From the NCBI RefSeq assembly GCF_021474425.1, contig NZ_JAKEIP010000014.1:1-64000 (forward strand): 64,000 nucleotides of DNA. The letters run 5' to 3'. Every line of letters starts with the position of its first letter. Position 1 is the first letter of the stretch. Source of the DNA: Streptomyces muensis (GTDB lineage Bacteria; Actinomycetota; Actinomycetes; Streptomycetales; Streptomycetaceae). The position numbers and the translations under genes were made by a program. Below, in pieces: positions 3,382-53,929 of the stretch. The notes beneath the pieces are model-generated. The model made no database searches and was not told the DNA's origin. It saw nothing but the letters and a program-made list of their open reading frames with translations.

Positions 3382-3388
3382 CGAGAAC

Positions 3389-6949: not shown

Positions 6950-7768
6950 CTATCGGAAGGACCGCAGACGCAGACTGTTGGTGACGACGAACACCGACGA
7001 GAAGGCCATCGCGGCCCCGGCGATCATCGGGTTGAGCATGCCGAGCGCGGCCAGCGGCAGGGCCGCCACGTTGTAGCCGAAGGCCCAGAAGAGATTGCCC
7101 TTGATGGTGGCGAGGGTCCTGCGGGACAGCCGGATCGCGTCGGCGGCCACCCGCAGGTCACCGCGTACGAGCGTGAGGTCGCCCGCCTCGATCGCCGCGT
7201 CCGTGCCGGTGCCCAGGGCGAGGCCGAGGTCGGCGGTGGCCAGGGCGGCCGCGTCGTTGACGCCGTCGCCGACCATGGCGACCGTACGGCCTTCCGCCTG
7301 CAGTCGCCTGACCACGTCGACCTTGTCCTCGGGCAGGACTTCCGCGATCACCTCGTCGATGCCGACGGCCCGGGCGACCGACTCGGCGACGAGCTGGTTG
7401 TCACCGGTCAGCAGGACCGGCTTCAGGCCGAGCCCCCGCAACTCCGCCACCGCTTCGGCGCTGGTCTCCTTGACGGCGTCGGCGACGGTGAGGACGCCGC
7501 GCGCCTCGCCGTCCCAGGCGACGGCGACCGCCGTCCGCCCCTCGGCCTCCGCGGCGGCCTTGGCCTCGGCGAGTTCCCGGGGCAGTTCGACGGCCCACCG
7601 CTCGAGGAGCTTCTCCCGGCCGACGAGTACGGTGTGCCCGTCCACGACGCCCCGGACGCCGAGGCCGGCGACGCTCTCGAAGTCCTCCGGCACCGGCAGG
7701 CTCCCGGCATGCTCGGCGGCTCCGGCCGCGATGGCCTGGGCGATCGGGTGCTCGGAGGCGTGCTCCAA
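6950..7768 (-). pseudogene. Truncated copper-translocating P-type ATPase (C-terminal third)
   Basis: 272 residues match only the last third of a CopA-type ATPase. Present are the nucleotide-binding motif SEHPIAQ, the hinge motif MVGDGVNDAAAL, and the last membrane pair with YNVAALPLAALG and MAFSSVFVV. Missing are the metal-binding domains, the first six membrane helices with the CPC motif, and the DKTGT phosphorylation site. Coding similarity stops at about 7768. Upstream bases can be read as EAAGAV, the usual lead into the family motif, but two bases out of frame. The remnant cannot transport. It abuts a second truncated gene on the opposite strand (7771-7890), so a deletion probably removed both 5' ends. 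Confidence 0.85.
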
Positions 7769-9134: not shown

Positions 9135-10235
9135 GTGAACACAAAAGACATGCAGTCATTGACCAAGACCGCGGTCGACGCGGGCCGGTCCGCCCTGTCC
9201 GGCCTCGTGGGCAACACCCCACTGCTGCGGGTGTCGGAGCCGCTGGCCCCGGCCGGACGCGGCTTCTGGGCGAAGCTCGAAGGGTTCAACCCCGGCGGCA
9301 TCAAGGACCGTCCGGGCCTGCACATGGTGGAGCGGGCCCGCGCCCGTGGCGATCTGCGGCCCGGCGGACGGATCATCGAGTCCACCAGCGGGACCCTGGG
9401 CCTGGGGCTGGCGCTCGCCGGAATGGTGTACGGCCACCCGGTCACCCTGGTCACCGACCCAGGGCTCGAGTTGGCCATGACCCGGCTGCTGACGGCGTAC
9501 GGCGCCCAGGTCAACGTCGTCTCCGAACCGCACCCGACGGGCGGCTGGCAGCAGGCCCGCCGCGAGCGGGTGCAGCGGCTGCTGGAGCAGCACCCGGACT
9601 CCTGGTGCCCGGACCAGTACAACAACCCGGACAACGTCGCCGCCTACACCCCGCTGGCCCTCGAACTCGCCTCCGAGCTGGGGCACATCGACGTACTGGT
9701 GTGCAGTGTCGGCACCGGCGGCCACTCCGCCGGCGTCTCCCGGGTGCTGCGCCAGCTCTACCCGGAGCTGACCGTCGTGGGCGTGGACACCACCGGTTCG
9801 ACGATCTTCGGCCAGCCCGCCCGGCCCCGTCTGATGCGCGGACTCGGCTCCAGCATCTACCCCCGCAACGTCGCCTACGAGAACTTCTCCGAGGTGCACT
9901 GGGTGGCCCCGGCCGAGGCGGTGTGGACGTGCCGACAGCTGGCCGCCTCCCACTACGCCACCGGTGGCTGGAGCGTCGGCGCGGTCGCGATGGCGGCCGG
10001 CTGGCTGGCCCGGACCATGTCGGCGGACGCGCGGATCGTCGCGATCTTCCCCGACGGTCCGCAGCGCTACCTGGGCACGGTCTACGACGACGACTACTGC
10101 GCCGCCCACGGCCTGCTGGACTCACCACCGGCACTCGAACCGGACCTGATCGGCAGCCTGGACGAGAAGGAGGTCACCCGCTGGACCCGGTGCACCACCG
10201 TGGTCGACCCCCTCGCCTCCGAGGAGGACCGGTGA
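9135..10235 (+). CDS. PLP-dependent cysteine synthase-family enzyme
   Basis: 366 residues of the fold-type II PLP family. VGNTPLLRV opens the fold, [10 protein letters not shown] holds the lysine expected to carry the PLP aldimine, [15 protein letters not shown] is the substrate-carboxylate loop, and [14 protein letters not shown] is the phosphate-binding Gly-rich loop. The residues around the lysine differ from housekeeping CysK, so a dedicated substrate is likely, for example O-phosphoserine or O-acetylserine with an unusual nucleophile. The stop overlaps the start of the MFS transporter by one base (TGATG), so product and transporter are coupled. The GTG at 9135 has a weak ribosome site; ATG at 9150 is an alternative. 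Confidence 0.8.
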
Positions 10236-11533
10236 TGGGGCTGTTCACCCAGGTCCGGTCGTACGAACGCGGCGTCCGGCTGTTGATGGTGAACCAGTTC
10301 ACCATCAACCTCGGCTTCTACATGCTGATGCCCTACCTGGCCGCCCACCTCTCCGGCACCCTCGGCCTGGCCGGCTGGATCGTCGGACTCGTCCTCGGCG
10401 TACGGAACTTCAGCCAGCAGGGCATGTTCCTGGTCGGCGGCACCCTCGCCGACCGGCTCGGCTACAAGCCGATGATCGTCGCCGGCTGTGTGCTGCGGAC
10501 CCTCGGCTTCGCGACCCTCGGTCTCGTGGACTCGCTGCCCGCGCTGCTCGCCGCCTCGGCGGCCACCGGGCTGGCCGGCGCGCTGTTCAACCCGGCCGTA
10601 CGGGCGTACCTCGCGGCCGACGCGGGGGAGCGCAGGGTCGAGGCGTTCGCCCTGTTCAACGTGTTCTACCAGGCCGGCATTCTGCTGGGCCCCCTCGTCG
10701 GCATGGTCCTGACCGGGGTCGACTTCCGCGTCACCTGCCTGGTGGCGGCCGGGATCTTCGCGCTGCTGAGCGTCGTACAGATCCGCGCGCTGCCCGCCCG
10801 GCGGGCCGAGGACGCCGAGCGGCAGGAGAGCCACAGCGGTCAGAGCGTGCTCGCCCAGTGGCGCGGCATCCTCGCCAACCGGCCGTTCGTACTGTTCTCC
10901 GTCGCCATGATCGGCTCCTACGTCCTGACCTTCCAGGTCTATCTGGCGCTGCCGCTGGAGGTGCGCCGGCTGGGCGGCGACGGGCAGTTCGGCACGGCGG
11001 CGGTCGCGGTGCTGTTCGCCGTGTCCGGGCTGAGCACGATCCTCGGCCAGACACGGGTCACGGCATGGTGCAAGCAGCGGTACGAACCCGGGCAGGCGCT
11101 CGTGCGCGGGCTCGCCGCGATGGGCCTGGCCTTCGTCCCGCTGCTGGCGGCCACCGCCGTACCCGTACCGGAGTCCCGGATCGGGCTGTGGCTGCTCGCG
11201 GCGGTTCCGCCGACCCTTGCCGCCCTGCTGCTGGCCATCGGCACGATGATCGCCTACCCCTTCGAGATGGACACCATCGTCCGCCTCTCGGGTGACCGCC
11301 TCGTCGCCACCCACTACGGGCTGTACAACACGATCTGCGGCATCGGCATCACCGTCGGGAACCTCGGCACGGGCGCCGCACTCGACGCCGCCCGCGCGGC
11401 CGGAATGCCCGCCCTGCCGTGGATCACGCTGACCGTCCTGGGCCTGGCGTGCGCGACCGCCCTGTACGGCCTGCACCGCACCGGCCGCCTCGCGACGCGC
11501 CCCGCTCCCGCCCCGCTCACCACGACCGCCTGA
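10235..11533 (+). CDS. MFS transporter coupled to the cysteine synthase-like gene
   Basis: 432 residues with about twelve hydrophobic segments. Loop 2-3 carries the MFS motif A as GGTLADRLGYKP, and a long basic loop (ARRAEDAERQ) separates the two halves. The ATG at 10235 overlaps the previous stop and follows GAGGAGG at good spacing. Position and coupling suggest that it exports or imports the product or substrate of the PLP enzyme, possibly an amino acid or small metallophore precursor. This is inference; MFS sequence alone does not give the substrate. Confidence 0.85.
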   Translation: MGLFTQVRSYERGVRLLMVNQFTINLGFYMLMPYLAAHLSGTLGLAGWIVGLVLGVRNFSQQGMFLVGGTLADRLGYKPMIVAGCVLRTLGFATLGLVDSLPALLAASAATGLAGALFNPAVRAYLAADAGERRVEAFALFNVFYQAGILLGPLVGMVLTGVDFRVTCLVAAGIFALLSVVQIRALPARRAEDAERQESHSGQSVLAQWRGILANRPFVLFSVAMIGSYVLTFQVYLALPLEVRRLGGDGQFGTAAVAVLFAVSGLSTILGQTRVTAWCKQRYEPGQALVRGLAAMGLAFVPLLAATAVPVPESRIGLWLLAAVPPTLAALLLAIGTMIAYPFEMDTIVRLSGDRLVATHYGLYNTICGIGITVGNLGTGAALDAARAAGMPALPWITLTVLGLACATALYGLHRTGRLATRPAPAPLTTTA

Positions 11534-11637: not shown

Positions 11638-11652
11638 TACCCCCAGGGGGTA
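11638..11652. promoter_or_regulatory. CsoR/RcnR/CstR-type operator upstream of the nuo-like operon
   Basis: TACCCCCAGGGGGTA is a perfect 15-base palindrome 36 bases before nuoA. The TACCC-N5-GGGTA pattern with G and C tracts is typical of operators of the CsoR family, whose members sense copper, nickel/cobalt, persulfide or formaldehyde. A similar 15-base site with the same spacing lies at 23826-23840 before the multicopper oxidase genes. A possible -10 (TAGCGT, 11651-11656) overlaps its right end, so repression is the likely mode. No CsoR-family gene is in the window. Confidence 0.6.
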
Positions 11653-11688: not shown

Positions 11689-12039
11689 ATGGACACATGG
11701 CAGCCGATGCTGGTCCTGCTCGGCGTGATCGGCGCCGGTCTGGCCGCTCTGTACGGGCTGGGCCTGTGGCTGGCCGCGGCGCGAGCGCCCCTCGACACCG
11801 GACCCTTCGCCGGAGGTCTCGAGCCGGGCGAGCACGCCGTGTCCCGGTTCCATGTGCGCTGGTACCCGGTCACCATGATCTTTCTGGCCTTCGACATGGA
11901 GATGCTCTTCATGTACCCGTGGGTGAAGGTCGTCTCGGAGGTGGGCACTCCGGCCGTCGTGGAGATGTTCCTCTTCCTCGGCATCCTGTTCGCTGCGGTG
12001 GCGTACGCCTGGCGCGAGGGGGCCCTGCGATGGACCTGA
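11689..12039 (+). CDS. nuoA: NADH-quinone oxidoreductase subunit A-like (NuoA)
   Basis: 116 residues with three transmembrane helices. The family loop between helices 1 and 2 is present as GLEPGEHAVSRFHVRWYPV, in place of the usual E-x-G segment around the quinone site. The second helix, FLAFDMEMLFMYPW, holds the conserved acidic residues (usual form VFDIE-x-FLYPWA). The start follows GGAGGT. It is the first gene of an eight-gene operon (nuoA-X-nuoHJKLMN) in which neighbours overlap or nearly touch. In complex I, NuoA links membrane arm and quinone tunnel; here there is no peripheral arm. Confidence 0.9.
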   Translation: MDTWQPMLVLLGVIGAGLAALYGLGLWLAAARAPLDTGPFAGGLEPGEHAVSRFHVRWYPVTMIFLAFDMEMLFMYPWVKVVSEVGTPAVVEMFLFLGILFAAVAYAWREGALRWT

Positions 12040-13259
12040 GAGGCGCTCTTCGGCGTACGGCGATGACACGCCCGGCGGTGCTGGCGGTGACGCTGCCCGG
12101 AGCGACCGAACTCCGGCTGGAGGCCGAGGCGGAGGTGCGCCGACGGGGGTGGCCCGTCGTGGATGCCCCGGCTGCCGCCGACCTGTTGGTCGTCTGCGGC
12201 GACCCGGCGTCGGATGACACGCCGTGGCTGGACGGCATCGAGCGGTCGATGCCGGAGCCCGCCCTGCGCATCGTGGCGGGGGAGAGCGGGCAGCTCGCCG
12301 ACGCGCTCGACACGGCTCGCAGGGACCTGATCGACAAGGCCGCGACTCGGCGCGCGGCCGAGGTGGCCGAGGTAGCCCACGTGGCCGACGTGTCGGACGA
12401 GCCCGGCGGCCATGAGCACGGCGATCACGAGGGGCACGGTGACGGCCACGACCACACCATGGGCGAGGTGGCGGGCCTTCCGATGGCCGAAAGGGGCGAC
12501 GACCGGGACGAGCTGAGGCTCGATCGGCTGCATGTGCCGATCGGTCCCGCGTCGAGCGACTGGCCGGCAGGGCTCGTTCTCCGTCTCACCCTGCAAGGCG
12601 ACGTCGTACAGGGCGTCGAAGTGGATCACCTCCCCCTACCGCCCAGCCCTCGACTCCCCTTCTGGGACGAGCCGTGGCTCAGGGCGGCGCACGGCGATGA
12701 GGTCAGCAGGGGCAGCGCGGTGCGCCGGCGTTGTGCCGCGCATCTGGACAGTGCGGGACGGCTGCTGGCCGTCGTCGGCTGGGACGACGTCGCGGCCCGG
12801 TGCCGTCGGCTGCGGGACGAGGTGCTGTCGGGGGCGTCACGTGAGAGCATCGGCGGCGATCTGCGCCGTACGGTTCGCCGCGTCGAGCGGTCCCGGCCGC
12901 TGCGCTGGTCGATCGCCGGACTGGGGGAGTTGCCGGCGGACCGGGCACGGGCGGCCGGAGTGAGCGGACCCGCGCTCGCCGCGGACGGGGACGCGCACGA
13001 CAGGCTGCTGAAGTGGCTGCACGAGGTCGAGCGCGGCCTCGAAGGGCTCGACGACGCACGGCCGTTGGCGCCGGATGACCGGACCGGCCCGCGTGGTCGG
13101 CTGGACGGACCGCAGCCGCCGTCGCGGGCGCTGCTCGACATCCTCCCCGAGTTGCTGACCGGCGCCGAGTTCGCCTGCGCCCGGATCATCGTGGCCAGCC
13201 TGGACCCCGACCTCGACGAACTCGCCCTCGCGCCCGTCTCCGGAGCGGCCCATGCCTGA
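12030..13259 (+). CDS. Degenerate NuoB/NuoD-like fusion with a His-rich linker
   Basis: 409 residues in the position where nuoB, C and D normally sit. Residues about 15-85 recall NuoB: ADLLVVCGDP and then SMPEPALRIVAG parallel the family pattern of VxxG followed by MPEPKWVISMG. The cysteine ligands of cluster N2 are absent. Residues about 128-142 form a His-rich linker (GHEHGDHEGHGDGHDH). From about 168, VPIGPASSDWPAGLVLRLTL resembles the NuoD beta-hairpin start; later ARAAGV, GDAHDRLLKW and the end ARIIVASLDPDLDELA follow NuoD's last helices and terminus. The active-site region between is reduced. The reading frame overlaps nuoA by ten bases. The homology is my reading by eye and needs structure-level checking. 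Confidence 0.6.
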   Translation: MDLRGALRRTAMTRPAVLAVTLPGATELRLEAEAEVRRRGWPVVDAPAAADLLVVCGDPASDDTPWLDGIERSMPEPALRIVAGESGQLADALDTARRDLIDKAATRRAAEVAEVAHVADVSDEPGGHEHGDHEGHGDGHDHTMGEVAGLPMAERGDDRDELRLDRLHVPIGPASSDWPAGLVLRLTLQGDVVQGVEVDHLPLPPSPRLPFWDEPWLRAAHGDEVSRGSAVRRRCAAHLDSAGRLLAVVGWDDVAARCRRLRDEVLSGASRESIGGDLRRTVRRVERSRPLRWSIAGLGELPADRARAAGVSGPALAADGDAHDRLLKWLHEVERGLEGLDDARPLAPDDRTGPRGRLDGPQPPSRALLDILPELLTGAEFACARIIVASLDPDLDELALAPVSGAAHA

Positions 13260-14196
13260 CGCAGCGCCCCTGTGGGCGACCGTCGTCCTGCCCGTCGCCC
13301 TGGCGGTGGCCGCCGTCGTCGCGGCCGGGTTCGACGCCATGCTATCCGGGTCGGCCGAGCGCGGCCCGGCCGGGAGCGTCCGGGAGGCCGGGCTGCGGGC
13401 GCTGGCCCCCTTGCGCGAGGCCCTGCGGCTGCTCGTCCAGCGGCCGCGCCGTACGACGGCCGCCGACCGGCTGCTCGGACGGCTGGGCGTGGTGCTGGTC
13501 CCGGTCGCGGCGGTGCTCGCGGGTGCCGTACTGCCGTGGGGCTTTCGCGCCGTGAGTGATCCGTCCGTCGGCATCGTGTGGTTCAACGCGATGGAGGCGC
13601 TGGCCTGGGCGGCGGTGTGGCTGGCGGGCTGGGGGCCGAACTCGGCGCTGTCGCTGGTCGGCGGGTACCGGTTCCTGGCGCAGGGTCTGGCGTACGAACT
13701 GCCGCACATGTTCGCCATCACCACCGCTGCCCTCGGCGCCGAGTCCCTGCGGGTCGGGGACGTGGTCGCGGCGCAGGACGGCCTGTGGTTCGTGGTGTGG
13801 ATGCCGGCCGCGTTCGTCGTCTATCTGCTGAGCGCGCTCGCGATGTCCTTCTGGGGGCCGTTCGAGCACCCGGTGTCGCGCGACGCGGCCGGTGGTGCGG
13901 CCGCCGAACTCGCGGGCGTGGACCGGCTGGTGTTCCTGGGCGGGCGGTGGCTGCTGCTGGTGGTGACCGCCGGGTTCAGCGTGCCGCTGTTCCTCGGCGG
14001 CGGCCACGGCCCGCTGCTGCCCGGCTGGGCATGGACGCTGGTCAAGACCGTCGCCGTCCTGGCGCTGCTGGTCGCCGGGCGCCGGGCACTGCCCGTGCTG
14101 CGGATGGAGCGGTACATGGAGGTGGCCTGGATGGTGCTGGTGCCGCTGACGCTGCTTCAGGCGCTGTTCGTGGCCGTAGTCGTCCTCAACCGATGA
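13252..14196 (+). CDS. nuoH: NADH-quinone oxidoreductase subunit H-like (NuoH)
   Basis: 314 residues with about eight membrane helices. The family core LAGWGPNSALSLVGGYRFLA, continuing QGLAYELP, matches the NuoH signature GWxSNxKYxxLGxxRxxAQxxSYE. The C-terminal RMERYMEVAWMVLVPLTL matches the usual RYDQLMxxxWKxxLP. NuoH forms the quinone channel at the junction of membrane and peripheral arms. The start overlaps the NuoB/D-like gene by eight bases. Several charged residues of the canonical protein are replaced, which fits a complex with altered or absent quinone chemistry. Confidence 0.85.
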   Translation: MPDAAPLWATVVLPVALAVAAVVAAGFDAMLSGSAERGPAGSVREAGLRALAPLREALRLLVQRPRRTTAADRLLGRLGVVLVPVAAVLAGAVLPWGFRAVSDPSVGIVWFNAMEALAWAAVWLAGWGPNSALSLVGGYRFLAQGLAYELPHMFAITTAALGAESLRVGDVVAAQDGLWFVVWMPAAFVVYLLSALAMSFWGPFEHPVSRDAAGGAAAELAGVDRLVFLGGRWLLLVVTAGFSVPLFLGGGHGPLLPGWAWTLVKTVAVLALLVAGRRALPVLRMERYMEVAWMVLVPLTLLQALFVAVVVLNR

Positions 14197-14206
14197 GCGA
14201 GAGGCC

Positions 14207-14770
14207 ATGCCTGACGAAGTGATCTTCTGGGTGCTTGCCCTGGTCGCCGTGGCCGCCGGAGTCATGGTCTTCCGGTTCGACTCCATGGCCCGGGCCACGT
14301 ACGCACTGCTGACCTCACTGCTGTGCGTCGGCGGCGAGGTGCTGCTGCTCGGGCTCGACTACCTCGGCGTGGTGATCGTGCTGATGATGACCATCGAGAT
14401 GGCCATCATGGCCGTCTTCATGGTGATGTACATGATGAACCCGGCCGGGCTCATGCCGATGACCATGGTCCACAACAAGAAGGGCGCGGCCGCGATCTGC
14501 GCGGCGGTCTTCGCCGTCCTCGCCGCGGGAGTCCTGCTCGCCCCGTGGCCGTCCCGGCGCGGCAGGCCGTCAGCCGACCCGACCATGGACCTGGGCCTGT
14601 CGCTGATGGGCCCTCAGATGCTCACCATGATGGCCCTGGGGCTCGCCCTGTTCGCCACCATCGTCGCGACCGTCGTCCTGGCCACCCGTCGGGGCCGCTA
14701 CGACCGCTTCGGCGACGACCTGAAGGCGCGGACCCCCGACGACGCCGTACGAGGAGGGACGGGCCGATGA
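14207..14770 (+). CDS. nuoJ: NADH-quinone oxidoreductase subunit J-like (NuoJ)
   Basis: 187 residues with five predicted helices. The central helix LLGLDYLGVVIVLMMTIEMA corresponds to the NuoJ helix that bears the pi-bulge (canonical F-x-A-x-x-Q-I-x-V-Y-x-G-A), with methionines and a glutamate where aromatic and glycine residues usually lie. Methionine content in helices and loops is high (VMYMMNPAGLMPMTM). NuoJ is a core membrane subunit with no cofactor. It starts with ATG after GAGAGG and overlaps nuoK by four bases. Confidence 0.8.
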   Translation: MPDEVIFWVLALVAVAAGVMVFRFDSMARATYALLTSLLCVGGEVLLLGLDYLGVVIVLMMTIEMAIMAVFMVMYMMNPAGLMPMTMVHNKKGAAAICAAVFAVLAAGVLLAPWPSRRGRPSADPTMDLGLSLMGPQMLTMMALGLALFATIVATVVLATRRGRYDRFGDDLKARTPDDAVRGGTGR

Positions 14771-15072
14771 GCCTTGAACTGTTCCTGCTGCTCGCCGCCG
14801 CCCTGTTCAGCATCGGTCTGTTCGGCGCGCTCACCCAGCAGTCGATCGTGATGCTGATGATGGGGCTGGAACTGATGCTGGGCGGCGTCATCGTCGGCGC
14901 GGCGGCCGTCTGGCACTACATCGCCCCGGCCGCCGCCGACGGGCAGGTGCTCGTCGTCCTCGCGGTCACGGTCATGGCGGTGGAGATGGTCGTCGGGTTC
15001 GCCGTCGTCACCGCGCTGTTCCGGTCCCGCGAGGTCGACATGACCGACATGGCGGCGGAGTTGAAGGAGTGA
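14767..15072 (+). CDS. nuoK: NADH-quinone oxidoreductase subunit K-like (NuoK)
   Basis: 101 residues with three helices, the usual NuoK size. The second helix holds GLELMLGGVIVGAAAV, matching the family's MxxELMLNAVNL with the key glutamate. The third helix contains the second glutamate (VMAVEMVVGFAVV; family AAxxAVGLALxV). Both glutamates form the proton-conducting axis in complex I. The ATG at 14767 overlaps nuoJ (ATGA) and the stop overlaps nuoL by four bases. Confidence 0.9.
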   Translation: MSLELFLLLAAALFSIGLFGALTQQSIVMLMMGLELMLGGVIVGAAAVWHYIAPAAADGQVLVVLAVTVMAVEMVVGFAVVTALFRSREVDMTDMAAELKE

Positions 15073-16919
15073 CCGCGCTGTTGTGGGCGCTCGTCGCGCT
15101 GCCACTGACCGTGGGGACACTGCTCGCGGTCGCCGGCCGCCAGGCCGACCGGTACGCCCCCACGGTCGCGGTCGCAACGGCCGTAACCGCCCTCGGCCTC
15201 GCCGTCGCGGCGGCGTTCGAGCACCCGAGGGCCGAGGCGCCGCTGCTCGAAGGGCTCCCGGCCGGGCTCGCGGTCGACGGGCTCTCGGGCCTCATGGTCG
15301 TGACCGTCACGGCGGTGACCGCGGCAGTCCTCCTCTTCGGCGTCGCCGACATCGGACCGGGCGAGGCACGCGCCCGCTTCTTCGGGCTGATGCTGCTGTT
15401 CAGCGGCGCGATGCTGACGACGGTCACCGCGACCACGCTGCCGGTCCTGCTGATGGCCTGGGAGGTGATGGGCGCCACCTCCTGGGCCCTGATCGGCTAC
15501 TGGTGGCGCGACCCGGAGCGCGGGAACGCCGCCAATACGGCCTTCCTGACCACCCGCGCCGCCGACCTCGGCCTCTACCTCGCCGCCGGAGCGGCCCTGG
15601 CGAGCGGGCAGGCCGGCTCCCTCGCCCTCGACGAACTCCCGGACGCCACCGGCGCGTGGTCGGCGGTCATCACCGCCGGCGTCATCGCGGCCGCGTTCGG
15701 CAAGTCGGCCCAACTGCCGTTCAGCTTCTGGCTGTCCCGGGCCATGCAGGGCCCGAGCCCGGTCTCCGCCCTGCTGCACTCGGCGACCATGGTCGTGGCC
15801 GGGGCGTATCTGCTGCTACGGCTGGAGCCGCTGCTCGCGGGGTCCGGCTGGGGCGGGCCCGTCGTGGCGTGGACGGGCGCGGTGACGGCGGTGGTCCTCG
15901 GCCTGGTCGCCGTCGCGCAGAGCGATCTCAAGCAGCTGCTCGCCGCCTCGACCTGCGCGCAGATCGGCTTCATGGTGCTGGCCGCCGGGGCAGGTACGGT
16001 CACCGGCGGAACCCTGCAACTCATCGCCCATGCCGCCGCGAAGAGCCTGGCCTTCCTCGTCGCGGGCGCCTGGCTGACGACCCTCGGCACCAAGGCGCTG
16101 CCCGCCCTGCGCGGTGCGGCCCGACGGCACCGTACGGCCGGGATCACCTTCACCGTCGGGGCCCTGGCGCTGGCCGGAGTCCCGCCCCTGTCGCTGTGGG
16201 CGGCGAAGGACGTGCTCCTCGCCGGTGCCCTTGAGGAGAGCACCGCGCTGTACGTCGTCGGGCTGGCCGGCGCGGTGATCTCCGCCGTCTACAGCGCCAA
16301 GGCCCTCTGGTTCGTCTGGCAGCCCGCTCCCGTACCGGACGACCGCGAGGAGCCGATGCCGCACGCGACCCGGCTGCCGCTGGTAACCCTTGCCGTCGCC
16401 TGCGCCGCCCTGACGGTCACGTCCTTCCCGCCCGTGCGCGACGCGGTCGAGCGGGTCCTCGGCGACGAGGCGCAACTCAGCCCGTACGTATGGGAGTTCG
16501 TCCTGTCAGGCGCCCTCGCGGTCGCGGTCTCCGCCGTGATCTGGATCCGCGGTCCGCAACTCCTCGCCCTCCCCGGCCGGCTCACCGCCCTGGCGGCGGA
16601 ATGGCTCGGTCTGGAGACCGCCGCGCGCACGCTCCTCGTACGTCCGGTCATGCGCCTCGCCGACGCGCTCGCCGCCTTCGACGACCGGGTACTGGACCGT
16701 GCCGTCGAGGGCGGCGCACGCGGCTCGGTCCGGCTGGCTCGGTGGACCGACTCCCAGGCCGAGCGGCTCGTCGACGGCGCCGTGGAAGGCGTGGCGGACG
16801 GCGCCCGTGCGCTCGGCCGCCTGGCCCGACGACCGCAGACCGGGCAACTGCACCAGTACCTCGCTCAGGCCGTCGCCGCCTTCACCGTCCTCGCCGTCGT
16901 CCTCGTCCTCGTGAGGTGA
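15069..16919 (+). CDS. nuoL: NADH-quinone oxidoreductase subunit L-like (NuoL)
   Basis: 616 residues of the Mrp antiporter-like family. The antiporter core includes LMAWEVMGATSWALIGYWW (helix 5 Glu), KSAQLPFSFWLSRAMQGPSP (helix 7 Lys and family signature), HSATMVVAGAYLL, and KQLLAASTCAQIGFM. The C-terminal third carries a long amphipathic region (residues about 520-590) and a final helix, matching NuoL's lateral piston rather than NuoM or NuoN. GTG start overlapping nuoK. Expected role is proton or sodium translocation in the membrane arm. Confidence 0.92.
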   Translation: MTALLWALVALPLTVGTLLAVAGRQADRYAPTVAVATAVTALGLAVAAAFEHPRAEAPLLEGLPAGLAVDGLSGLMVVTVTAVTAAVLLFGVADIGPGEARARFFGLMLLFSGAMLTTVTATTLPVLLMAWEVMGATSWALIGYWWRDPERGNAANTAFLTTRAADLGLYLAAGAALASGQAGSLALDELPDATGAWSAVITAGVIAAAFGKSAQLPFSFWLSRAMQGPSPVSALLHSATMVVAGAYLLLRLEPLLAGSGWGGPVVAWTGAVTAVVLGLVAVAQSDLKQLLAASTCAQIGFMVLAAGAGTVTGGTLQLIAHAAAKSLAFLVAGAWLTTLGTKALPALRGAARRHRTAGITFTVGALALAGVPPLSLWAAKDVLLAGALEESTALYVVGLAGAVISAVYSAKALWFVWQPAPVPDDREEPMPHATRLPLVTLAVACAALTVTSFPPVRDAVERVLGDEAQLSPYVWEFVLSGALAVAVSAVIWIRGPQLLALPGRLTALAAEWLGLETAARTLLVRPVMRLADALAAFDDRVLDRAVEGGARGSVRLARWTDSQAERLVDGAVEGVADGARALGRLARRPQTGQLHQYLAQAVAAFTVLAVVLVLVR

Positions 16920-16924
16920 CCGCC

Positions 16925-18433
16925 GTGCTCACGGCCCTCGTCCTGCTCCCCACCGCCATGGCGGCCCTCCTGCTGTGCGTGCCGCGCGGCGCGCCCCGCA
17001 CGCTGTTCCTGACGGCCTGGGCGGCGACCACCGCCGCCGAACTGGTCCTGACGGTGATCGTCTGGACGGGATACCGGGCGGGCGACGGCATGCAGTACGA
17101 GACGCGGGCCCGCTGGATCCCCAGCGCCGGCATCAGCTACCACGTCGGAGTCGACGGCCTGTCCCTGCCCCTGGTGGCCGTCACCTGCGTGCTGTTCCTC
17201 GCCTGCGCCGCGTACGCCTGGCGCCAGACCCGTCGGCCCAGGGAGTTCGTGGCCCTGTTCCTGTTCCTGCAGACCACCTGCCTCGGTCTGTTCGTCGCCC
17301 TCGACCTGATCCTGTTCTTCGTCTTCTTCGACCTGTCCATCGTGGCGATGTACTTCATCATCGCCGGGTGGGGCCACAAGGGCGCCGCCCGCGCGGCACT
17401 GAAGTTCTTCCTCTACACCTTCATCGGCTCCCTCGCCCTCCTGCTCGGCTTCATCGGCCTGTACCTGGCCGCCGACCCGCACACCTTCGACATCATCGAG
17501 CTGACCGACGCCGACCCCCTGGCCGGACGCGCGACGTACGGCGCCCTCGTCCTCCTCGCCATCGCCGTCGGACTGGCGGTCAAGACCCCGACCGTGCCCT
17601 TCCACACCTGGCTGCCGCCCGCGCACACGGACGCCCCGGCCGCCGGGTCGGCGATCCTGGCCGGGGTGCTGCTGAAGATGGGGACGTACGGTTTCCTGCG
17701 CATCGCCATGCCCGTGCTGCCCGACGCCTGGCGCGAGTACGCCCTCGTCCTCGTCGTCGTCGGCGTGGTCTCCGTGCTCTACGGCGCGCTGGTCGCCCTC
17801 GCCCAGACCGACTTCAAACGGATGGTCGCCTACACCTCCGTCAACCACATGGGCTACATCATCCTGGCCATCGGGGCGGCCGGGGCGGTCGGCGCGGACC
17901 AGGAGGAGGCCCGCCGCCTGGCCGTCACCGGCTCGGTCTTCCAGATGGTCAGTCACGGGCTGCTGACCGGTGCGCTGTTCCTGCTGTCCGGCGTGCTGTA
18001 CGAGCGGGGGCGCACGTACGAGATGTCCGCGTACTCCGGTGTGGCCGGGCGGGCGCCGGTGTTCGCCGCGCTGACCGGCGTCGCCGCCTTCGCCTCGCTG
18101 GGGCTGCCGGGGTTCTCCGGCTTCATCGCCGAGTTCCAGATCCTCACCGGGAGCCTGGGCCCGCAGCCGGTGGCGACCGGCCTTGCCGTGCTCGGGATCC
18201 TGCTCACGGCCGGCCTGTTCCTGCGCGCCCTGCAACAGGTCTTCCTCGGACCGCTGCGGCTGCCGGTCGCCGCGCCCGGCACCGACCGGCCGTTCCCGGA
18301 CATCCGTCTCCACGAAGGACTCGCGATCGTCCCGCTGCTGGCCCTGGGCGTCGTCCTCGGCCTCGCCCCCCGGTTCGTCCTCGACGTCATCGAGCCCGCC
18401 TCGCGCACCGTGCTGGAGCTGCTGGCGCGATGA
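16925..18433 (+). CDS. nuoM: NADH-quinone oxidoreductase subunit M-like (NuoM)
   Basis: 502 residues with about fourteen helices. NuoM hallmarks are ISYHVGVDGLSLPLV near the N-terminus, FVFFDLSIVAMYFIIAGWG (helix 5; here the family glutamate EGxLIPMYxxIG is aspartate), KTPTVPFHTWLPPAHTDAP (helix 7 Lys), and DFKRMVAYTSVNHMGYI. The GTG start lies five bases after the nuoL stop; an in-frame opening further upstream lacks family similarity. It should be one of three antiporter-like pumps of the operon. Confidence 0.92.
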   Translation: MLTALVLLPTAMAALLLCVPRGAPRTLFLTAWAATTAAELVLTVIVWTGYRAGDGMQYETRARWIPSAGISYHVGVDGLSLPLVAVTCVLFLACAAYAWRQTRRPREFVALFLFLQTTCLGLFVALDLILFFVFFDLSIVAMYFIIAGWGHKGAARAALKFFLYTFIGSLALLLGFIGLYLAADPHTFDIIELTDADPLAGRATYGALVLLAIAVGLAVKTPTVPFHTWLPPAHTDAPAAGSAILAGVLLKMGTYGFLRIAMPVLPDAWREYALVLVVVGVVSVLYGALVALAQTDFKRMVAYTSVNHMGYIILAIGAAGAVGADQEEARRLAVTGSVFQMVSHGLLTGALFLLSGVLYERGRTYEMSAYSGVAGRAPVFAALTGVAAFASLGLPGFSGFIAEFQILTGSLGPQPVATGLAVLGILLTAGLFLRALQQVFLGPLRLPVAAPGTDRPFPDIRLHEGLAIVPLLALGVVLGLAPRFVLDVIEPASRTVLELLAR

Positions 18434-19860
18434 ACGAGATGACCGGCATGAACGAGAACCCCCTCGACCTCCTGCCCGAGGTGCTGCTCGCCGCGTCGGC
18501 CGTGCTCGGTCTGCTGCTCGGGGCGTGGCTGCCGCGCCGTCGGCAGTGGCTGACCGGAGCGCTGGCGTTCGTGGCCTGCGCCGCGGGGATCGTGGCAGCC
18601 GCCGTCGCCGCGGCCGGCCCCGTGGAGACGGCCTTCGGTGAGTCCTTCGCCCTGGACACGCTCACCGCCACCAGCCGGATCGTCATCCTCGGCGCCACGC
18701 TGCTCGTCCTCGCGCTCGCCATGCCGCGCCTGTACGCCGACCCGCGCGAGACGGAGTTCTACGTCCTGCTCCAACTCGCCTCCGCGGGCGCCCTGATGAT
18801 GGCCGGAGCCCAGGACCTGCTCCTCCTCGCCGCCGGTTACCTGCTGGCCAGCGTGCCCGCCTACGCGCTCGCCGGGTTCCGCAAGGACGGCCCCGGCACC
18901 GAGGCGGCACTGAAGTACTACGTCGTGGGCGCACTGCTCGGCGTCGTGATGCTCGCCGGCGTCACCGTCCTCCTCGCCGCCGGGCGGACCACGTCGTACG
19001 CGACGCTGCGCACCGAACTCGCCGAGGCGCCGCCGGGACTCGTCGCGGCCGGCACGCTCGCCCTGCTCGCCGGGGTCCTGTTCAAGGCCGGCGCCGTGCC
19101 CGGCCACTTCTGGGTGCCGGACACCGTCCAGGGCAGCTCGGCGCCGGTCGCCGCCTTCCTCACCACCGTCCCCAAGATCGGCGCCCTGGCGGCGTTCCAC
19201 CGGCTCGCCGCCGTGCCGCTCGCGGACGCCGGCCTGCCGTGGGCCGACCTGGTGGCGGTGCTCTCGGTCGCCTCGATGACGTTGGGCAACCTGGCCGCCT
19301 TCTTCCAGCAGGACGTCAAACGGCTCCTCGCGTACTCCACGATCAGCCAGGTCGGCTACCTCCTGCTGCCCGTGGCCGTCGCCGGCCGCACCGACCTCGA
19401 CCAGGAGGCCCTGCTGTACTACCTGGCCGGGTACGCGCTGACCAACCTCGGAGCCTTCGCCGTCGTCTGCGCACTCCCCGACGCCCACACCATCGACGAC
19501 TACCGCGGCCTGGCCCGGACGCACCCGGCCCTCCTGGCCTCGCTAGTCGTCTGCCTGCTGGGCCTGGTGGGCACGCCGCCGACCGCCGTCTTCCTCGGCA
19601 AACTGGAAGCCTTCAGCGCCGCCTTCGACGGCGGCTACGCATGGCTCGCGGTCGTCGCGGCCGTCAACACGGTGGCCTCCCTCTTCTACTACCTGCGCTG
19701 GATCGCCCCGGCCTTCCTCGCGCGCGGCCCCTCGGACACCTCCCGTACGACATCGGGGACGACCGCCGCGGTCGCCTACGGAGCGGCCACGGGTTCCGTC
19801 GTGCTCGGGCTGCTCGGCGGCACCGTCCTGGACGCGCTGAGCGGTCCGCTCGCGCGGTGA
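18430..19860 (+). CDS. nuoN: NADH-quinone oxidoreductase subunit N-like (NuoN)
   Basis: 476 residues with about fourteen helices. It carries the antiporter-family motifs GVLFKAGAVPGHFWVPDTVQ (helix 7 Lys region), KRLLAYSTISQVGYLLL, and LVGTPPTAVFLGK near the end, as expected for NuoN. The segment with the helix 5 glutamate is altered. The ATG overlaps nuoM (ATGA). It is the last gene of the operon; about 90 bases later a gene with its own strong ribosome site begins. No nuoC, E, F, G or I is present on either strand. Confidence 0.9.
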   Translation: MNEMTGMNENPLDLLPEVLLAASAVLGLLLGAWLPRRRQWLTGALAFVACAAGIVAAAVAAAGPVETAFGESFALDTLTATSRIVILGATLLVLALAMPRLYADPRETEFYVLLQLASAGALMMAGAQDLLLLAAGYLLASVPAYALAGFRKDGPGTEAALKYYVVGALLGVVMLAGVTVLLAAGRTTSYATLRTELAEAPPGLVAAGTLALLAGVLFKAGAVPGHFWVPDTVQGSSAPVAAFLTTVPKIGALAAFHRLAAVPLADAGLPWADLVAVLSVASMTLGNLAAFFQQDVKRLLAYSTISQVGYLLLPVAVAGRTDLDQEALLYYLAGYALTNLGAFAVVCALPDAHTIDDYRGLARTHPALLASLVVCLLGLVGTPPTAVFLGKLEAFSAAFDGGYAWLAVVAAVNTVASLFYYLRWIAPAFLARGPSDTSRTTSGTTAAVAYGAATGSVVLGLLGGTVLDALSGPLAR

Positions 19861-20994: not shown

Positions 20995-21708
20995 ATGACC
21001 GCCCACAACACCGCCCACCACCCTGCCCCGCGGCGCCGTCTTCGTCGCCGTATGGCCATCGTGAGCACCGTCGCGGCAGGCGGGCTGCTGCTCGCCGCCT
21101 GCGGCGGGGACGGCATGGAGGGCATGGACCACGGGAGCGGCAGCTCCGCCTCCGCCACGTCCACCCCGACGGCGGGGGACGACGCGGCGGCCGGCGCCTT
21201 CAACGACGCGGACGTCACGTTCGCGCAGATGATGATCCCGCACCACGAGCAGGCCCTGGAGATGTCCCGGCTGGCGGACGGCCGGGCCTCCGACGCGGAG
21301 GTCAAGACCCTGGTCGCGGACATCGAGAAGGCCCAGGATCCCGAGATCCAGACCATGAAGTCCTGGCTGAAGGCCTGGGGCAAGCCGGAGTCCGCCCAGG
21401 AGAGCATGCCCGGCATGGACCACGGGTCCGGCGGAATGGATCACGGGTCGGACGGAACGGACCAGGGGTCCGGGATGCCCGGGATGATGTCCGAGCAGGA
21501 CATGCAGAAGCTCCAGGCCGCCAAGGGCACCGAGTTCGACCGGATGTTCGCGGAGATGATGATCGAGCACCACGAGGGCGCGATCACCATGGCGGAGGAC
21601 GAGCAGAAGAACGGCCGTGACGCCGCGGCCAAGAAGCTCGCGGCCGACGTCGTGAAGACCCAGTCCGCCGAGGTCGAGAAGTTCAAGAAGATCCTCGACC
21701 GGCTCTGA
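20995..21708 (+). CDS. DUF305 lipoprotein
   Basis: 237 residues. An Arg-rich N-terminus and a hydrophobic stretch end in the lipobox LLAAC (about residue 36), so the mature protein is a membrane-anchored exoprotein. DUF305 follows as two similar halves, each with a motif of the form FxxMMIxHHExAxxMA: FAQMMIPHHEQALEMS and FAEMMIEHHEGAITMA. Between them is a Met/His/Gly linker (GMDHGSGGMDHGSDG). The paired His and Met residues suggest metal binding, and DUF305 genes often sit near copper genes. That link is known for the family; the exact ligand is not. Confidence 0.9.
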   Translation: MTAHNTAHHPAPRRRLRRRMAIVSTVAAGGLLLAACGGDGMEGMDHGSGSSASATSTPTAGDDAAAGAFNDADVTFAQMMIPHHEQALEMSRLADGRASDAEVKTLVADIEKAQDPEIQTMKSWLKAWGKPESAQESMPGMDHGSGGMDHGSDGTDQGSGMPGMMSEQDMQKLQAAKGTEFDRMFAEMMIEHHEGAITMAEDEQKNGRDAAAKKLAADVVKTQSAEVEKFKKILDRL

Positions 21709-24301: not shown

Positions 24302-24397
24302 GCCGTGCCCAACGGCTTCCTCGCGCCCCTTTTCCGCGCCGAGGAGCCGTCCCAGCACGCCAACTCCCGTATGCGCACACTGAGATCGAGGACACTC

Positions 24398-25897
24398 ATG
24401 AACAGCATCAACCGCCGCTCCGTCCTGCTCGCCGGGCTCGGCGTCGCGGGCGCCGGCACGCTCGCCGCCTGCAGCGGCGACTCCAGCCCGACACCCGTCC
24501 TGGTCGATCCCTCCGGCTCGGCGGTCGCAGCGACCGAGAAGAAGCGGAGGAGCACCGGCAGGACGCGGAACGTGACCCTGACCGCGGCACCGGCCGTGCT
24601 CGACCTCGGCGGCGGGGTCACGGCCAGGAGCTGGGCCTACGGCGGCCAGGCCCCCGGCAAGGAGATCCGCCTGTCCGTCGGCGACACCCTGGCCGCCGAA
24701 CTCTCCAACCAGCTGCCGAACCGGACCACCACGTCCATCCACTGGCACGGCCTCGCCATGCGCAACGACATGGACGGCGTGCCCCCGGTGACCCAGCAGT
24801 CCGTCCGAGCGGGCGCCAAGTTCACCTACCGCTTCGTCACCGACGCCCCCGGCACGTACTTCTTCCACCCCCACGTCGGCCTCCAGCTCGACCGGGGCCT
24901 GTACGCGCCGCTGATCGTCGAGGACCCCGAGGAACCGCTGGCGTACGACGACGAATGGGTCGTCGTCCTCGACGACTGGGTCGACGGTGTCACCGGCACC
25001 CCCGACGAGGTCCTCGCCGAGCTGCGGCAGGGCATGGGCGGCATGGACGGCATGTCGATGAAGTTCATGCTGATGGGCGCCGAGAGCGAGCTGCTCTGCG
25101 GCGACGCCGGCGACGTGAGGTACCCGTACCACCTGGTCAACGGCCGTGTCCCCACCGACCCCGCCGTCCATCGGGGCAAGCCCGGTCAGCGGGTCAGGCT
25201 GCGTCTCGTCAACGCGGGCGGCGACACGGCGTACCGGGTGGCGCTCGGGGGCCACAGGATGACCGTCACCCACACCGACGGGTTCCCCGTCGAGCATCAG
25301 CAGGTCGACGCCCTGCTGATCGGCATGGGGGAGCGGTACGACGTCCTGGTCACCCTCGGCGACGGTGTGTTCCCGCTCGTCGCGCTGGCCGAGGGCAAGG
25401 ACGCCACCGGCATGGCACTGGTCCGTACGGCATCCGGCGGCGCGCCGAGGGCCACCGTCCGCCCGAAGGAACTGGACGGCAGGATCCTGACGGCGTCCCG
25501 GCTGCGCGCGGCCGACGACGTCCGGCTGCCGTCCAGGAAGGTGGACCGGGTGCACCGGGTCGAGCTGACCGGCGGCATGGACAAGTACGACTGGGCCATC
25601 AACGGCAAGCCCTACGACATGGCCGACCCGACCGCGAGTCCGCTCACGATCGAGGAGGGGCAGCGGGTCCGGCTGGACTTCGTCAACGGCACGGAGATGT
25701 GGCACCCGATGCACCTGCACGGCCACACCTACCAGCTCGGGAACACCGGCCCGCGCAAGGACACCTCCATCGTCCTGCCCAGGGGGAAGCTGTCCGTCGT
25801 CTTCGACGCCGACAACCCGGGCCGGTGGATGCTGCACTGCCACAACGCGTACCACGCAGAGGTCGGCATGATGGCGCTGGTCGCCTACCGGAACTGA
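24398..25897 (+). CDS. Multicopper oxidase (CueO/PcoA-like), Tat lipoprotein
   Basis: 499 residues. The N-terminus NRRSVLLAGLGVAG plus lipobox LAAC suggests Tat export with lipid anchoring. All copper ligands are visible: HWHG (about 110), HPH (about 153) in the first domain, then HPMHLHGH (about 435) and HCHNAYHAEVGM (about 475-486), which bring together the type 1, 2 and 3 sites; the last Met is the type 1 axial ligand. A Met-rich segment (GMGGMDGMSMKFMLMG) recalls the cuprous-ion gate of CueO. Role: oxidation of Cu(I) or phenolics outside the membrane. Paired with DUF6153 behind a CsoR-type site. Confidence 0.92.
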   Translation: MNSINRRSVLLAGLGVAGAGTLAACSGDSSPTPVLVDPSGSAVAATEKKRRSTGRTRNVTLTAAPAVLDLGGGVTARSWAYGGQAPGKEIRLSVGDTLAAELSNQLPNRTTTSIHWHGLAMRNDMDGVPPVTQQSVRAGAKFTYRFVTDAPGTYFFHPHVGLQLDRGLYAPLIVEDPEEPLAYDDEWVVVLDDWVDGVTGTPDEVLAELRQGMGGMDGMSMKFMLMGAESELLCGDAGDVRYPYHLVNGRVPTDPAVHRGKPGQRVRLRLVNAGGDTAYRVALGGHRMTVTHTDGFPVEHQQVDALLIGMGERYDVLVTLGDGVFPLVALAEGKDATGMALVRTASGGAPRATVRPKELDGRILTASRLRAADDVRLPSRKVDRVHRVELTGGMDKYDWAINGKPYDMADPTASPLTIEEGQRVRLDFVNGTEMWHPMHLHGHTYQLGNTGPRKDTSIVLPRGKLSVVFDADNPGRWMLHCHNAYHAEVGMMALVAYRN

Positions 25898-29302: not shown

Positions 29303-30139
29303 TCACATACCGTCCATCGACGGCATCGAGCCCTGCAGCCCCGGCAGCAGCCAGTCCTGGAACGGTGCGAGCACGGCCAGGACGAGGAAGACGACCCCCA
29401 CGGCGCGGGCGAGCAGCGGCCCGCGGGACCACAGCTTCTCCACGAGGATCACAAGGGCCAGTCCGGCCATCGCCGCCACGTTCATCACGCCGAGCGGAAC
29501 GAGGACGACCATCAGCCCGGCGCAGCAGCCGACGCAGTAGGCGCCGTGGTGGACCCCCACCCGCAGATCGCGGGCCGGTCGCCGGAAGCCCGCGTAGCGC
29601 ACCAACTGGCTCAGCGGGTCGCGGCAGTGCCGCAGACAGACGTTCTTGAGGGGACCGAGCTGGTACAGGCCCGCGAGCAGGAAGGCGATCGAGCCGATCC
29701 AGCGTCCGGCGGTGGGATGGTCCTCCACCAGGTCGCCGGTGAAGGCCAGAGCGGCGTACGCGAGCAGGCCGAAGGCCGCCCAGACCAGCAGATATCCGCC
29801 CATGAACGCCCCGGTGCGGGCGGTCCGTGCCCAACCGGAGGACTGCCGGCCGATTCCCCGCACCCAGGTGATGGCCACCGGCGCCATGGACGGCAGCATC
29901 ATGGCCGCCATCATCGTCACCCAGAGCAGCAGGAACAGGGGCAGCGCCATCCCCATCGTGCCGGGCTCGACCCCCATGTCCCGGGCCTGACCTATCGTCA
30001 GCACCCAGGCGGGCACCGCGATCAGCACCACCAGGAGCCAGGCGGCCGCGAGCTCCCGCGCCGGCAGCAGTCTCCCGCCCGCTCCGGTCGGAGCGGGCGA
30101 CCGGGTGGATACGAGGGTGGAGATCCGGATCTGGCGCAT
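29303..30139 (-). CDS. DUF2182 polytopic membrane protein
   Basis: 278 residues with about seven helices. MTMMAAMMLPSMAP is the hallmark Met-rich helix of DUF2182 (predicted metal-binding integral membrane proteins). A loop with two Cys/His groups (LKNVCLRHCRDP) and another (HHGAYCVGCCAGLM) follow, and GLQGSMPSMDGM closes the protein. I placed the start at the ATG at 30137-30139 (MRQIRIST), preceded by AGGGGA. It pairs with DUF1326. A role in metal transport or insertion is likely from composition, not shown. Confidence 0.85.
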   Translation of the reverse strand: MRQIRISTLVSTRSPAPTGAGGRLLPARELAAAWLLVVLIAVPAWVLTIGQARDMGVEPGTMGMALPLFLLLWVTMMAAMMLPSMAPVAITWVRGIGRQSSGWARTARTGAFMGGYLLVWAAFGLLAYAALAFTGDLVEDHPTAGRWIGSIAFLLAGLYQLGPLKNVCLRHCRDPLSQLVRYAGFRRPARDLRVGVHHGAYCVGCCAGLMVVLVPLGVMNVAAMAGLALVILVEKLWSRGPLLARAVGVVFLVLAVLAPFQDWLLPGLQGSMPSMDGM

Positions 30140-30250
30140 CGGTGTTCCCCTGCGGATGCTTCCAGGAGAGCACGCCTCCACCCGCGATGCGACCTGGTCA
30201 GACCGGACTCCTACGGGACCCGGGCGAGTGACCCGGGCCCCACGGCGTGA

Positions 30251-52445: not shown

Positions 52446-52470
52446 TTCTCGAAAGGCGTGGCTGATCGCC

Positions 52471-53103: not shown

Positions 53104-53122
53104 CGGCGTTACGCGATCCCCA

Positions 53123-53917: not shown

Positions 53918-53929
53918 CCGAGGGACGAC

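Follow-up and report, generated by a model that had tools for sequence, protein, structure and literature searches.

What might a relative of respiratory complex I do without the arm that brings it electrons? The question is raised by eight plus-strand genes, nuoA2-BD2-nuoH2-nuoJ2-nuoK2-nuoL2-nuoM2-nuoN2, at positions 11689-19860 of the first 64,000 nucleotides of contig NZ_JAKEIP010000014.1 of Streptomyces muensis (assembly GCF_021474425.1); this whole stretch is referred to below as the window. An initial annotation, made from the letters of the window, placed the genes correctly and described an operon for NuoA, NuoH, NuoJ, NuoK, NuoL, NuoM and NuoN plus one unusual protein, a description that the coordinates and Pfam matches confirm. 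The operon is real, conserved and in part already known, and its function has probably been misread so far. The complex that it encodes very probably serves copper handling and, to judge from the predicted proteins, is quite possibly a proton-driven exporter of Cu(I), a Cu(I)/H+ antiporter. This copper connection, which was missed by the initial annotation, appears in an operator, in neighbouring genes and in conserved methionines.

Organization and distribution of the operon

Each of the seven nuo products (A, H, J, K, L, M, N) is above its Pfam cut-off, and the BD2 protein (gene X) has no match above cut-off in Pfam and NCBIfam scans (Table 1). All reading frames are unbroken and all junctions overlap except that of nuoH2 and nuoJ2, which are 10 nucleotides apart. 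The operon itself contains no gene for an Fe-S or flavin subunit (NuoE, NuoF, NuoG, NuoI). Searches with the host's own NuoB, NuoC, NuoD, NuoE, NuoF, NuoG and NuoI found no relatives of these proteins in the available flanks of 27 class-sample and 80 named loci (defined below; for the named loci, a median of 9.7 kb upstream and 3.4 kb downstream), so that no adjacent nuoB-I-like genes were found in relatives within that range; elsewhere in the host, the housekeeping operon was the part examined. With no such genes in operon or flanks, the earlier view that the complex lacks an electron-transfer arm and is not a classical NADH dehydrogenase stands. The same host genome (9.89 Mb in 669 contigs) has a complete 14-gene nuo operon on contig C115, in which the B, C, D, E, F, G, H, I, J, M and N genes were assigned via Pfam and A, K and L by sequence and order.

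Of 394 genomes of the class, 27 gave a BD2 match, the host being one of them, and 25 of the 27 loci from the other 26 genomes (the class sample) have the full order A-BD-H-J-K-L-M-N. At least 405 stretches with BD2 relatives are present in a collection of named genomes. The best 80 of these (the named loci) are biased to Streptomyces, with Wenjunlia, Micromonospora, Actinomadura, Nonomuraea, Halopolyspora, Acidiferrimicrobium and two metagenome-assembled genomes also represented, and 77 of them have the full eight-gene order. At L148 and L157 (named) and L044 (class sample), the order is incomplete where the contig ends inside the operon. Overlaps are also kept: among the named loci they are found at the A2-BD2 junction in 62/80, BD2-H2 in 78/80, J2-K2 in 78/80, M2-N2 in 76/79 and H2-J2 in 8/80. 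The expectation of a maintained operon is supported by this order and these overlaps, and reading frames are kept in nearly all loci. Two loci are decayed: at L126, nuoM and nuoN are gone though the contig continues, and L2 runs into other sequence, and L060 is a remnant consisting of a piece of BD2 alone. In one genome (G387), the eight-gene operon is present twice in full, as diverged copies (L055 and L056). Genes were called by a GC-frame script or from blast hits, with the start nearest the previous stop; the start called at L141 is wrong.

Distant relatives were found in other classes of the phylum by a profile search of 396 genomes, in which weak matches confined to profile positions of about 41-79 look like ordinary NuoB. 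Of the 13 other-class loci fetched, 12 have A, H, J, K, L, M and N in the same order, and the remaining one (L254) is truncated by its contig. A canonical NuoL query gives the best match to the L subunit of L255 and L259. In an unrooted NuoM tree, 17 family members and 12 distant relatives are split from 17 canonical actinobacterial NuoM by a fully supported branch. Partial nuo clusters in Streptomyces, which the initial annotation had mentioned, are indeed in print, and the operon is not confined to that genus.

The BD2 protein

For a profile of 26 BD2 members, NuoB chains rank first in PDB (E 1.1e-5, residues 35-79). In direct profile comparison, BD2 matches NuoB with a probability of 87-93 and NuoD over the last 30 residues only (E 0.0085, probability 5), and no match to NuoC is found. 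An AlphaFold model of BD2 (predicted local distance difference test score, pLDDT, 89; predicted template modelling score, pTM, 0.86) has a NuoD fold in residues 155-400, which align with mycobacterial NuoD (8e9h_D) at Z 21.5, root-mean-square deviation (rmsd) 2.5 and 19% identity over 236 residues; this part is shorter than NuoD, 236 of 407 residues being aligned. Because the listed fold matches of the whole model belong to the NuoD family, the N-terminal part was folded separately (pLDDT 92). NuoB-type chains lead its matches (Foldseek E 2e-4; VIA Z 9.8, rmsd 3.3, 112 residues aligned), in a comparison in which two unrelated rows also reach Z 8.3-8.4. In four distant BD2 relatives, the domain HMBD (PF19335) lies between the two halves and exceeds its cut-off in each of them (E 5e-12 to 1e-14). 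Complex1_49kDa (PF00346) is over cut-off in three of the same four proteins and scores 23.0 against a cut-off of 24 in the fourth, and a NuoB match is present below threshold in three. The HMBD region of L263 matches the copper ATPases 8ovl_A and 3rfu_A in a phmmer search of PDB.

On the grounds of profile, fold and the Pfam architecture of its distant relatives, BD2 is a degenerate NuoB-NuoD fusion around a linker that is putatively metal-binding. The initial annotation, which saw one unusual protein and no proper nuoB or nuoD, missed the fusion and its linker. In the window the linker has a modest His-rich stretch with 7 His; linkers with at least 5 His are found in 67/80 named relatives and in 18/26 class-sample loci, and MDHGGM-type repeats are present in some BD2. 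The distant BD2 proteins of L255, L258, L259 and L263 are about 550-620 residues long, with HMBD, His-rich stretches and a NuoD part nearer to the canonical one, and are perhaps an older form of the fusion.

A Pfam match of BD2 to bpX5 (E 0.046) and an NCBIfam match to FpoD (E 0.16) are weak and were not used, and a match of the BD2 profile to CueO (E 6.9) is at chance level. A stand-alone NuoD homolog on contig C148 was rejected as a dedicated partner of the operon, being found also in genomes without BD2. It (L062, about 3186-3935, minus strand) adjoins a Methyltransf_28 gene (2104-3096, plus strand, PF02636), which presumably belongs to the NDUFAF7/MidA-like family.

In complex I, cysteines of NuoB bind cluster N2, a His and a Tyr of NuoD are quinone ligands, and loop glutamates of NuoH lie near the quinone site. 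A CC or CxxC motif is present in the NuoB part of only 1/106 BD2 proteins, so the four cysteines of the N2 cluster are not there, and 23/106 have no Cys at all in their first 115 residues. The GPQHPSTHG motif of NuoD has been replaced by GPxxxxWPxG, and the RMDY segment is missing, in the five BD2 rows aligned; four distant relatives have GPLFxGLPxG at the position of the motif. No invariant Cys, His or Tyr was found in the BD2 alignment, and three glutamates of the quinone-side loop are substituted in NuoH2. To judge from these residues, the redox function of the complex I arm is gone from the operon's complex. Another electron donor, which the initial annotation had considered, is unlikely because the NuoB cysteines and the NuoD quinone segment are lost; its suggestion of a redox-independent ion translocator is in line with the loss of redox residues.

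Conserved residues of the membrane subunits

Residues were compared in a set of 107 rows that includes three repeats (L034 = L101, L149 = L171, L165 = L166), and were counted as gained if present in at most a tenth of 16-21 canonical sequences. NuoJ2 has gained Met27, Met60, Met61, Met65, Met68, Met72, Met76, Met77, Met85, Met87, Met134, Met141, Glu64 and His89, each in 106/106 rows; NuoK2 has gained Met29, Met31, Met70 and Met74 (106/106), and NuoA2 has gained His49, His55, Met72 and Met75 (107/107). The mean methionine content of NuoJ2 across the family is 10.2%, compared with 3.0% for canonical NuoJ, and 13 of the 38 invariant columns of NuoJ2 are Met, compared with none of 10 in canonical NuoJ, at a median pairwise identity of 61%. 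Distant relatives share most of these residues. In NuoJ, M27, M60, M61, E64, M65, M68, M72, M76, M85, M87 and H89 are present in 12/12, and the less-kept methionines are M77 (11/12), M134 (6/12) and M141 (2/12). In NuoK, Met29 and Met70 are present in 12/12, Met31 in 11/12 and Met74 in 8/12; in NuoA, His55, Met72 and Met75 are present in 13/13 and His49 in 8/13.

Methionine normally exchanges easily with leucine or isoleucine, and sites rich in Met have a preference for Cu(I) or Ag(I); the invariance of the gained methionines in spite of that exchangeability suggests that they are ligands. NuoJ, NuoK and NuoA surround the E-channel of complex I beside the quinone site. In Mrp antiporters, the path proposed for the cation includes an essential Glu of a NuoJ-like part, at the position of Tyr59 in the third transmembrane helix (TM3) of complex I (PMC7419157, in the text available). 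Glu64 of NuoJ2 is invariant, but in the alignment it falls 3 residues beyond the Tyr found in the canonical motif.

The residues of the proton paths are largely retained in the antiporter-like subunits. In NuoL2, all seven of the seven residues checked are conserved in 103/103. NuoM2 keeps five of six in 102/102, the Glu of TM5 having become Asp in 102/102; it is Glu in 4/12 distant relatives. NuoN2 keeps Lys219 in 99/102 and Lys249 and Lys391 in 102/102, and in 4/12 distant relatives Lys219 is replaced by Glu. NuoK2 has Glu35 in 106/106 and Glu73 in 105/106, NuoA2 keeps Asp69 in 106/107 and also Glu71, and Glu149 of NuoH2 is present in 105/107 of the family.

A candidate operator upstream of nuoA2

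CsoR sites of Streptomyces lividans have the consensus ATATACCCCTNAGGGGTATAT, in which TAC-X9-GTA is required (PMC3902906, in the text available). The palindrome upstream of nuoA2 (Table 1) fits both the consensus and the rule, and is a candidate site of this type. The exact sequence TACCCC-N3-GGGGTA is found at five places in the host genome, and its reversed control at none. Two of the five sites are in the promoter of copZ-copA (encoding an HMA protein followed by an HMA plus E1-E2 ATPase), the nearer one 73 nucleotides before copZ; the gene on the opposite side is of uncertain family. Other exact sites are located 69 nucleotides before a second copZ-like HMA gene and 62 nucleotides before a gene for a His-rich DUF4396 protein. 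With two mismatches allowed and the window only considered, 2 operator matches were found against 1.85 expected, which is chance; therefore, the case for the operator rests on the exact genome-wide count.

Upstream of nuoA2, an exact operator is found in 12/107 rows and an operator with at most 1 mismatch in 23/107, 22 of these with the same spacing; with repeats removed, these counts become 11/104, 21/104 and 20. At most 1 mismatch was found in 4/549 control genes and 0/21 housekeeping nuoA genes. Two of the 13 other-class loci have exact sites as well: that of L252 precedes nuoA2 by about 0.2 kb, and that of L253 is flanked by a copZ-like gene and nuoA2, with a distance to nuoA2 of at least 0.35 kb. 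One host gene of the CsoR family carries Cys/His/Cys residues, a pattern that we take to be the copper type. A near-operator (TACCCAGTAGGGGTA) is present upstream of the host csoR-like gene (L264:1346-1360), as in S. lividans. The sequence TGCCCC-N3-GGGGTA, often after ATT, was noted upstream of nuoA2 in L140, L147, L155, L156, L165, L166, L172, L037 and L038, and may be a variant CsoR site.

Copper genes around the operon

Genes for DUF305 proteins, CopA, CopZ or multicopper oxidases are found in the flanks of 34/80 named loci (33/78 distinct) and 9/26 class-sample loci, compared with 1/40 regions of 20 kb drawn at random from class-sample genomes (Fisher p 1e-6 for the named loci and 6e-4 for the class sample, uncorrected for relatedness). 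The query families were picked from clusters in the flanks, and 2 of the 40 control positions were moved by hand off or away from the operon. At least one of the four copper families is present at 7/13 other-class loci (L252, L253, L255, L257, L258, L259, L263), a count made with a looser filter and no separate control.

Proposed function and alternatives

The fusion, the losses of redox and quinone features, the gained Met, His and Glu, the operator with its genome-wide company and the enrichment in the neighbourhood were each computed directly. With the parts for electrons lost, metal-binding segments gained and an apparent copper switch in front, the complex therefore probably moves copper rather than electrons. 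In the scheme proposed here, high cytosolic Cu(I) would free CsoR from the operator, and the operon would then be expressed. The cytosolic BD2 cap would dock where the quinone-reducing arm docks in complex I, and would take up Cu(I) through its His/Met-rich linker. Cu(I) might then be handed to the invariant His of the NuoA2 loop and to the Met and His of the NuoJ2 loop, and might pass along the Met- and Glu-lined NuoJ2/NuoK2/NuoA2 core, the region of the complex I E-channel and of the proposed Na+ path of Mrp. Protons moving inward through the antiporter-like subunits would power its exit. Since CsoR frees its target genes at copper excess, export or detoxification is favoured over import. 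The link of the operon to copper is strong; export, like CsoR control through the operator, Cu(I) binding in cap and core, the path and the proton coupling, is something that we infer.

Several observations weigh against this scheme. A copA P-type ATPase is encoded by the host as well, which leaves unexplained why a second exporter would be needed. The neighbour p-values overstate the enrichment, because the queries were taken from the flanks and the strains are related, and in 46/80 named loci the available flanks contain no core copper gene. No operator within 1 mismatch is present in 84/107 rows, and 13/80 named BD2 linkers have fewer than 5 His (one through a mis-called start), so that a His-rich linker is not universal. 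The seven TM3 methionines of NuoJ2 are not on one helix face (p 0.14), clustering being limited to residues 61, 65, 68, 72 and 76. Glu149 of NuoH2 is kept in only 3/12 distant relatives, and the TM5 Glu of NuoN2 has become Leu in 100/102; the matching Glu of MrpD is located at the coupling point of Mrp (PMC7419157, in the text available).

Copper bound to the cap might instead gate or regulate a translocator of protons or other ions that defends the gradient under copper stress, a condition that damages Fe-S enzymes, the housekeeping complex I among them. This explanation, which is unlikely but deserves consideration, draws on the same operator, neighbour and linker evidence, and also on the intact proton-path residues of NuoL2 and most of those of NuoM2. 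It offers no obvious driver of outward pumping without a redox reaction, and the series of Met, Glu and His within NuoJ2, NuoK2 and NuoA2, beyond the cap, suggests passage.

Chances are rather slim that the same machine serves another metal (Zn2+, Ni2+ or Ag+), or imports or delivers copper. The label of HMBD in Pfam is merely "heavy metal binding domain", and His-rich stretches bind many metals, but control of the CsoR type implies an excess of Cu(I), and the Met-rich sites point to Cu(I) or Ag(I). Similarly improbable is the published role, translocation of Na+/H+ or H+ as an adaptation to marine or osmotic conditions. Many of the species among the best 80 loci are, we take it, soil streptomycetes and Actinomadura, and the at least 405 matches in one collection likewise sit poorly with a marine specialization. 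That role was proposed from the distribution of the operon in papers of 2014, 2018 (Sun et al.) and 2019 (strains SM17 and SM18), as far as their available text goes, and the operon was noted in S. griseus by Ian et al. (PMC4018334). Such adaptation would also leave the CsoR-type operator, the copper neighbours, HMBD and the Met series unexplained, and as the main role it is set aside here on the distribution and copper evidence, though not disproved.

A use of copper as redox cofactor, in which Cu(I)/Cu(II) or a chain of bound metal would let the cap oxidise Cu(I) and pass electrons to quinone with proton pumping, is very unlikely: it would suit the metal-binding linker and the multicopper oxidases near some loci, but the quinone residues of NuoD are gone, several of those of NuoH are replaced and BD2 has no invariant Cys, His or Tyr. 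That the products are spare membrane subunits docking on the housekeeping complex I, as the initial annotation had allowed and these data do not support, or a decaying duplicate, is hardly credible given the fully supported NuoM branch, the order and many residues kept across the phylum and the operon's own cap, even with a full nuo operon in the host and two decayed loci (L126, L060) on record.

Returning to copper export, the "partial complex I" so far filed under marine adaptation may be put forward as a copper system open to testing, in which a cap, a switch and a candidate path can be named. Reduced relatives of complex I of this kind are present in many actinobacteria. It is possible, though slightly less so than export itself, that the complex is the first transporter of a soft transition metal in the complex I superfamily, with a NuoB/NuoD copper-loading cap, a Met-lined E-channel and a CsoR switch, spread through the Actinomycetota; there is a fair chance of a new type of copper transporter. 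If so, the region that serves coupling in complex I is able to transport a metal ion rather than respond to quinone chemistry. This would bear on the way in which redox site and pumps are coupled in complex I, and on how the superfamily has moved between ion antiport and redox pumping.

Other features of the window

Genes on either side of the operon are included in Table 1. Also present downstream are genes for a DUF5134 protein and a BlaI-type repressor, and a sub-threshold match to DUF6153. Directly upstream of the operon are a PALP (cysteine-synthase-like) gene and a gene for an MFS transporter (9135-11530); PALP genes are found in the flanks of 13/80 named loci and 1/40 controls, and the MFS family in 10/80 and 0/40. 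Potassium-uptake genes were identified through Pfam at 48661-56479, with KdpA at 48661-50322 and KdpD at 53930-56476; kdpD was reported in a marine gene cluster by Sun et al. 2018 (PMC6002675, in the text available). Scans of the window for tRNA genes and Rfam families were empty.

Table 1. Coordinates of the operon, its parts and copper-related genes in the window
Feature	Position	Strand	Evidence or remark
Metal P-type ATPase, C-terminal fragment, N-terminal part missing	6950..7768	-	PF00702 E 4e-29; CopA resemblance by eye
Candidate CsoR-type operator, perfect palindrome TACCCCC-A-GGGGGTA (TACCCCCAGGGGGTA)	11638..11652	.	Ends 36 nt before nuoA2 start codon
nuoA2	11689..12039	+	PF00507 E 4e-25
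BD2, unusual protein: NuoB-like N-terminal part, His-rich linker, NuoD-like C-terminal part	12030..13259	+	PDB profile; AlphaFold model and fold comparison
NuoB-like part of BD2, residues 1-121 (sequence match 35-79), cysteine motifs absent	12030..12392	+	
His-rich core of BD2 linker, GGHEHGDHEGHGDGHDH, residues 126-142	12405..12455	+	
NuoD-like part of BD2, residues 155-400	12492..13229	+	Fold match to 8e9h_D
nuoH2	13252..14196	+	PF00146 E 5e-42
nuoJ2	14207..14770	+	PF00499 E 3e-10
NuoJ2 Met-rich TM3 and following loop, residues 60-89	14384..14473	+	Residue counts
nuoK2	14767..15072	+	PF00420 E 1e-12
nuoL2, GTG start	15069..16919	+	PF00361 E 4e-48
nuoM2, GTG start	16916..18433	+	PF00361 E 3e-66
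nuoN2	18430..19860	+	PF00361 E 1e-52
DUF305 protein, Met/His-rich, recurrent neighbour	20995..21705	+	PF03713 E 7e-53
Multicopper oxidase, recurrent neighbour	24305..25894	+	PF07731, PF07732, PF00394
Predicted copper chaperone, PpoB2 family	29306..30181	-	PF09948 E 3e-53

Comparison with known systems

A "partial NDH-1 operon 2" of seven nuo genes was described from Salinispora and nine other Actinobacteria by Penn and Jensen in 2012 (PMC3314556), and subsequently from sponge Streptomyces and S. griseus by Ian et al. 2014 (PMC4018334) and from Kocuria by Sun et al. 2018 (PMC6002675); a paper of 2019 (PMC6676996) lists nuoA, "a hypothetical protein", nuoH, J, K, L, M and N. In the text available for them, all four propose proton or Na+ pumping for life in seawater. 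Gene content and order are the same as in the window, and the operon very probably belongs to this family, a match made by gene order. The second gene is hypothetical or omitted in the available text of these papers, whereas here it is identified as the NuoB-NuoD fusion BD2. The word "copper" does not occur in the available text of PMC3314556 or PMC4018334, and that of PMC6002675 deals with copper resistance in connection with separate copD genes. No published identification of BD2 or link of the operon to copper was found in the literature searched, which leaves most subscription journals outside it. New with respect to that literature are the CsoR-type operator, the neighbourhood of copper genes and the gained Met, Glu and His of NuoJ2.

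The operon resembles complex I in its NuoA, NuoH, NuoJ, NuoK, NuoL, NuoM and NuoN, in the NuoB and NuoD folds and in the antiporter charges, which are mostly kept, and differs from it in having no NADH, flavin or Fe-S subunits and in the fusion of B and D around a metal-binding linker. With Mrp it shares redox-free antiporter-like subunits and perhaps a TM3 carboxylate in the NuoJ-like part; Mrp is not known to have a NuoB/D cap, and, unlike Mrp, the operon has an N subunit that has lost the TM5 Glu and a core lined with Met. NuoH is also absent from Mrp (PMC7419157, in the text available), whereas the operon has NuoH2 as well as BD2. In NCBIfam, the seven nuo products (A, H, J, K, L, M, N) are matched best by Nuo models and not by those of Mrp.

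Other complexes, namely NDH-1MS/CupA, DabAB and Ehr, reuse the membrane module of complex I for tasks other than NADH oxidation, and those of the Ehr type have hydrogenase-like subunits without NiFe ligands. To our knowledge, none of these is copper-controlled or has a NuoB-NuoD fusion with HMBD or a His-rich linker. In its control the operon resembles the CsoR-controlled copZA of S. lividans (PMC3902906, in the text available), which has the same type of operator, and the host's own copZ-copA carries the same sites; CopA, however, is a P-type ATPase, whereas the operon in the window encodes a multi-subunit and presumably proton-coupled assembly.

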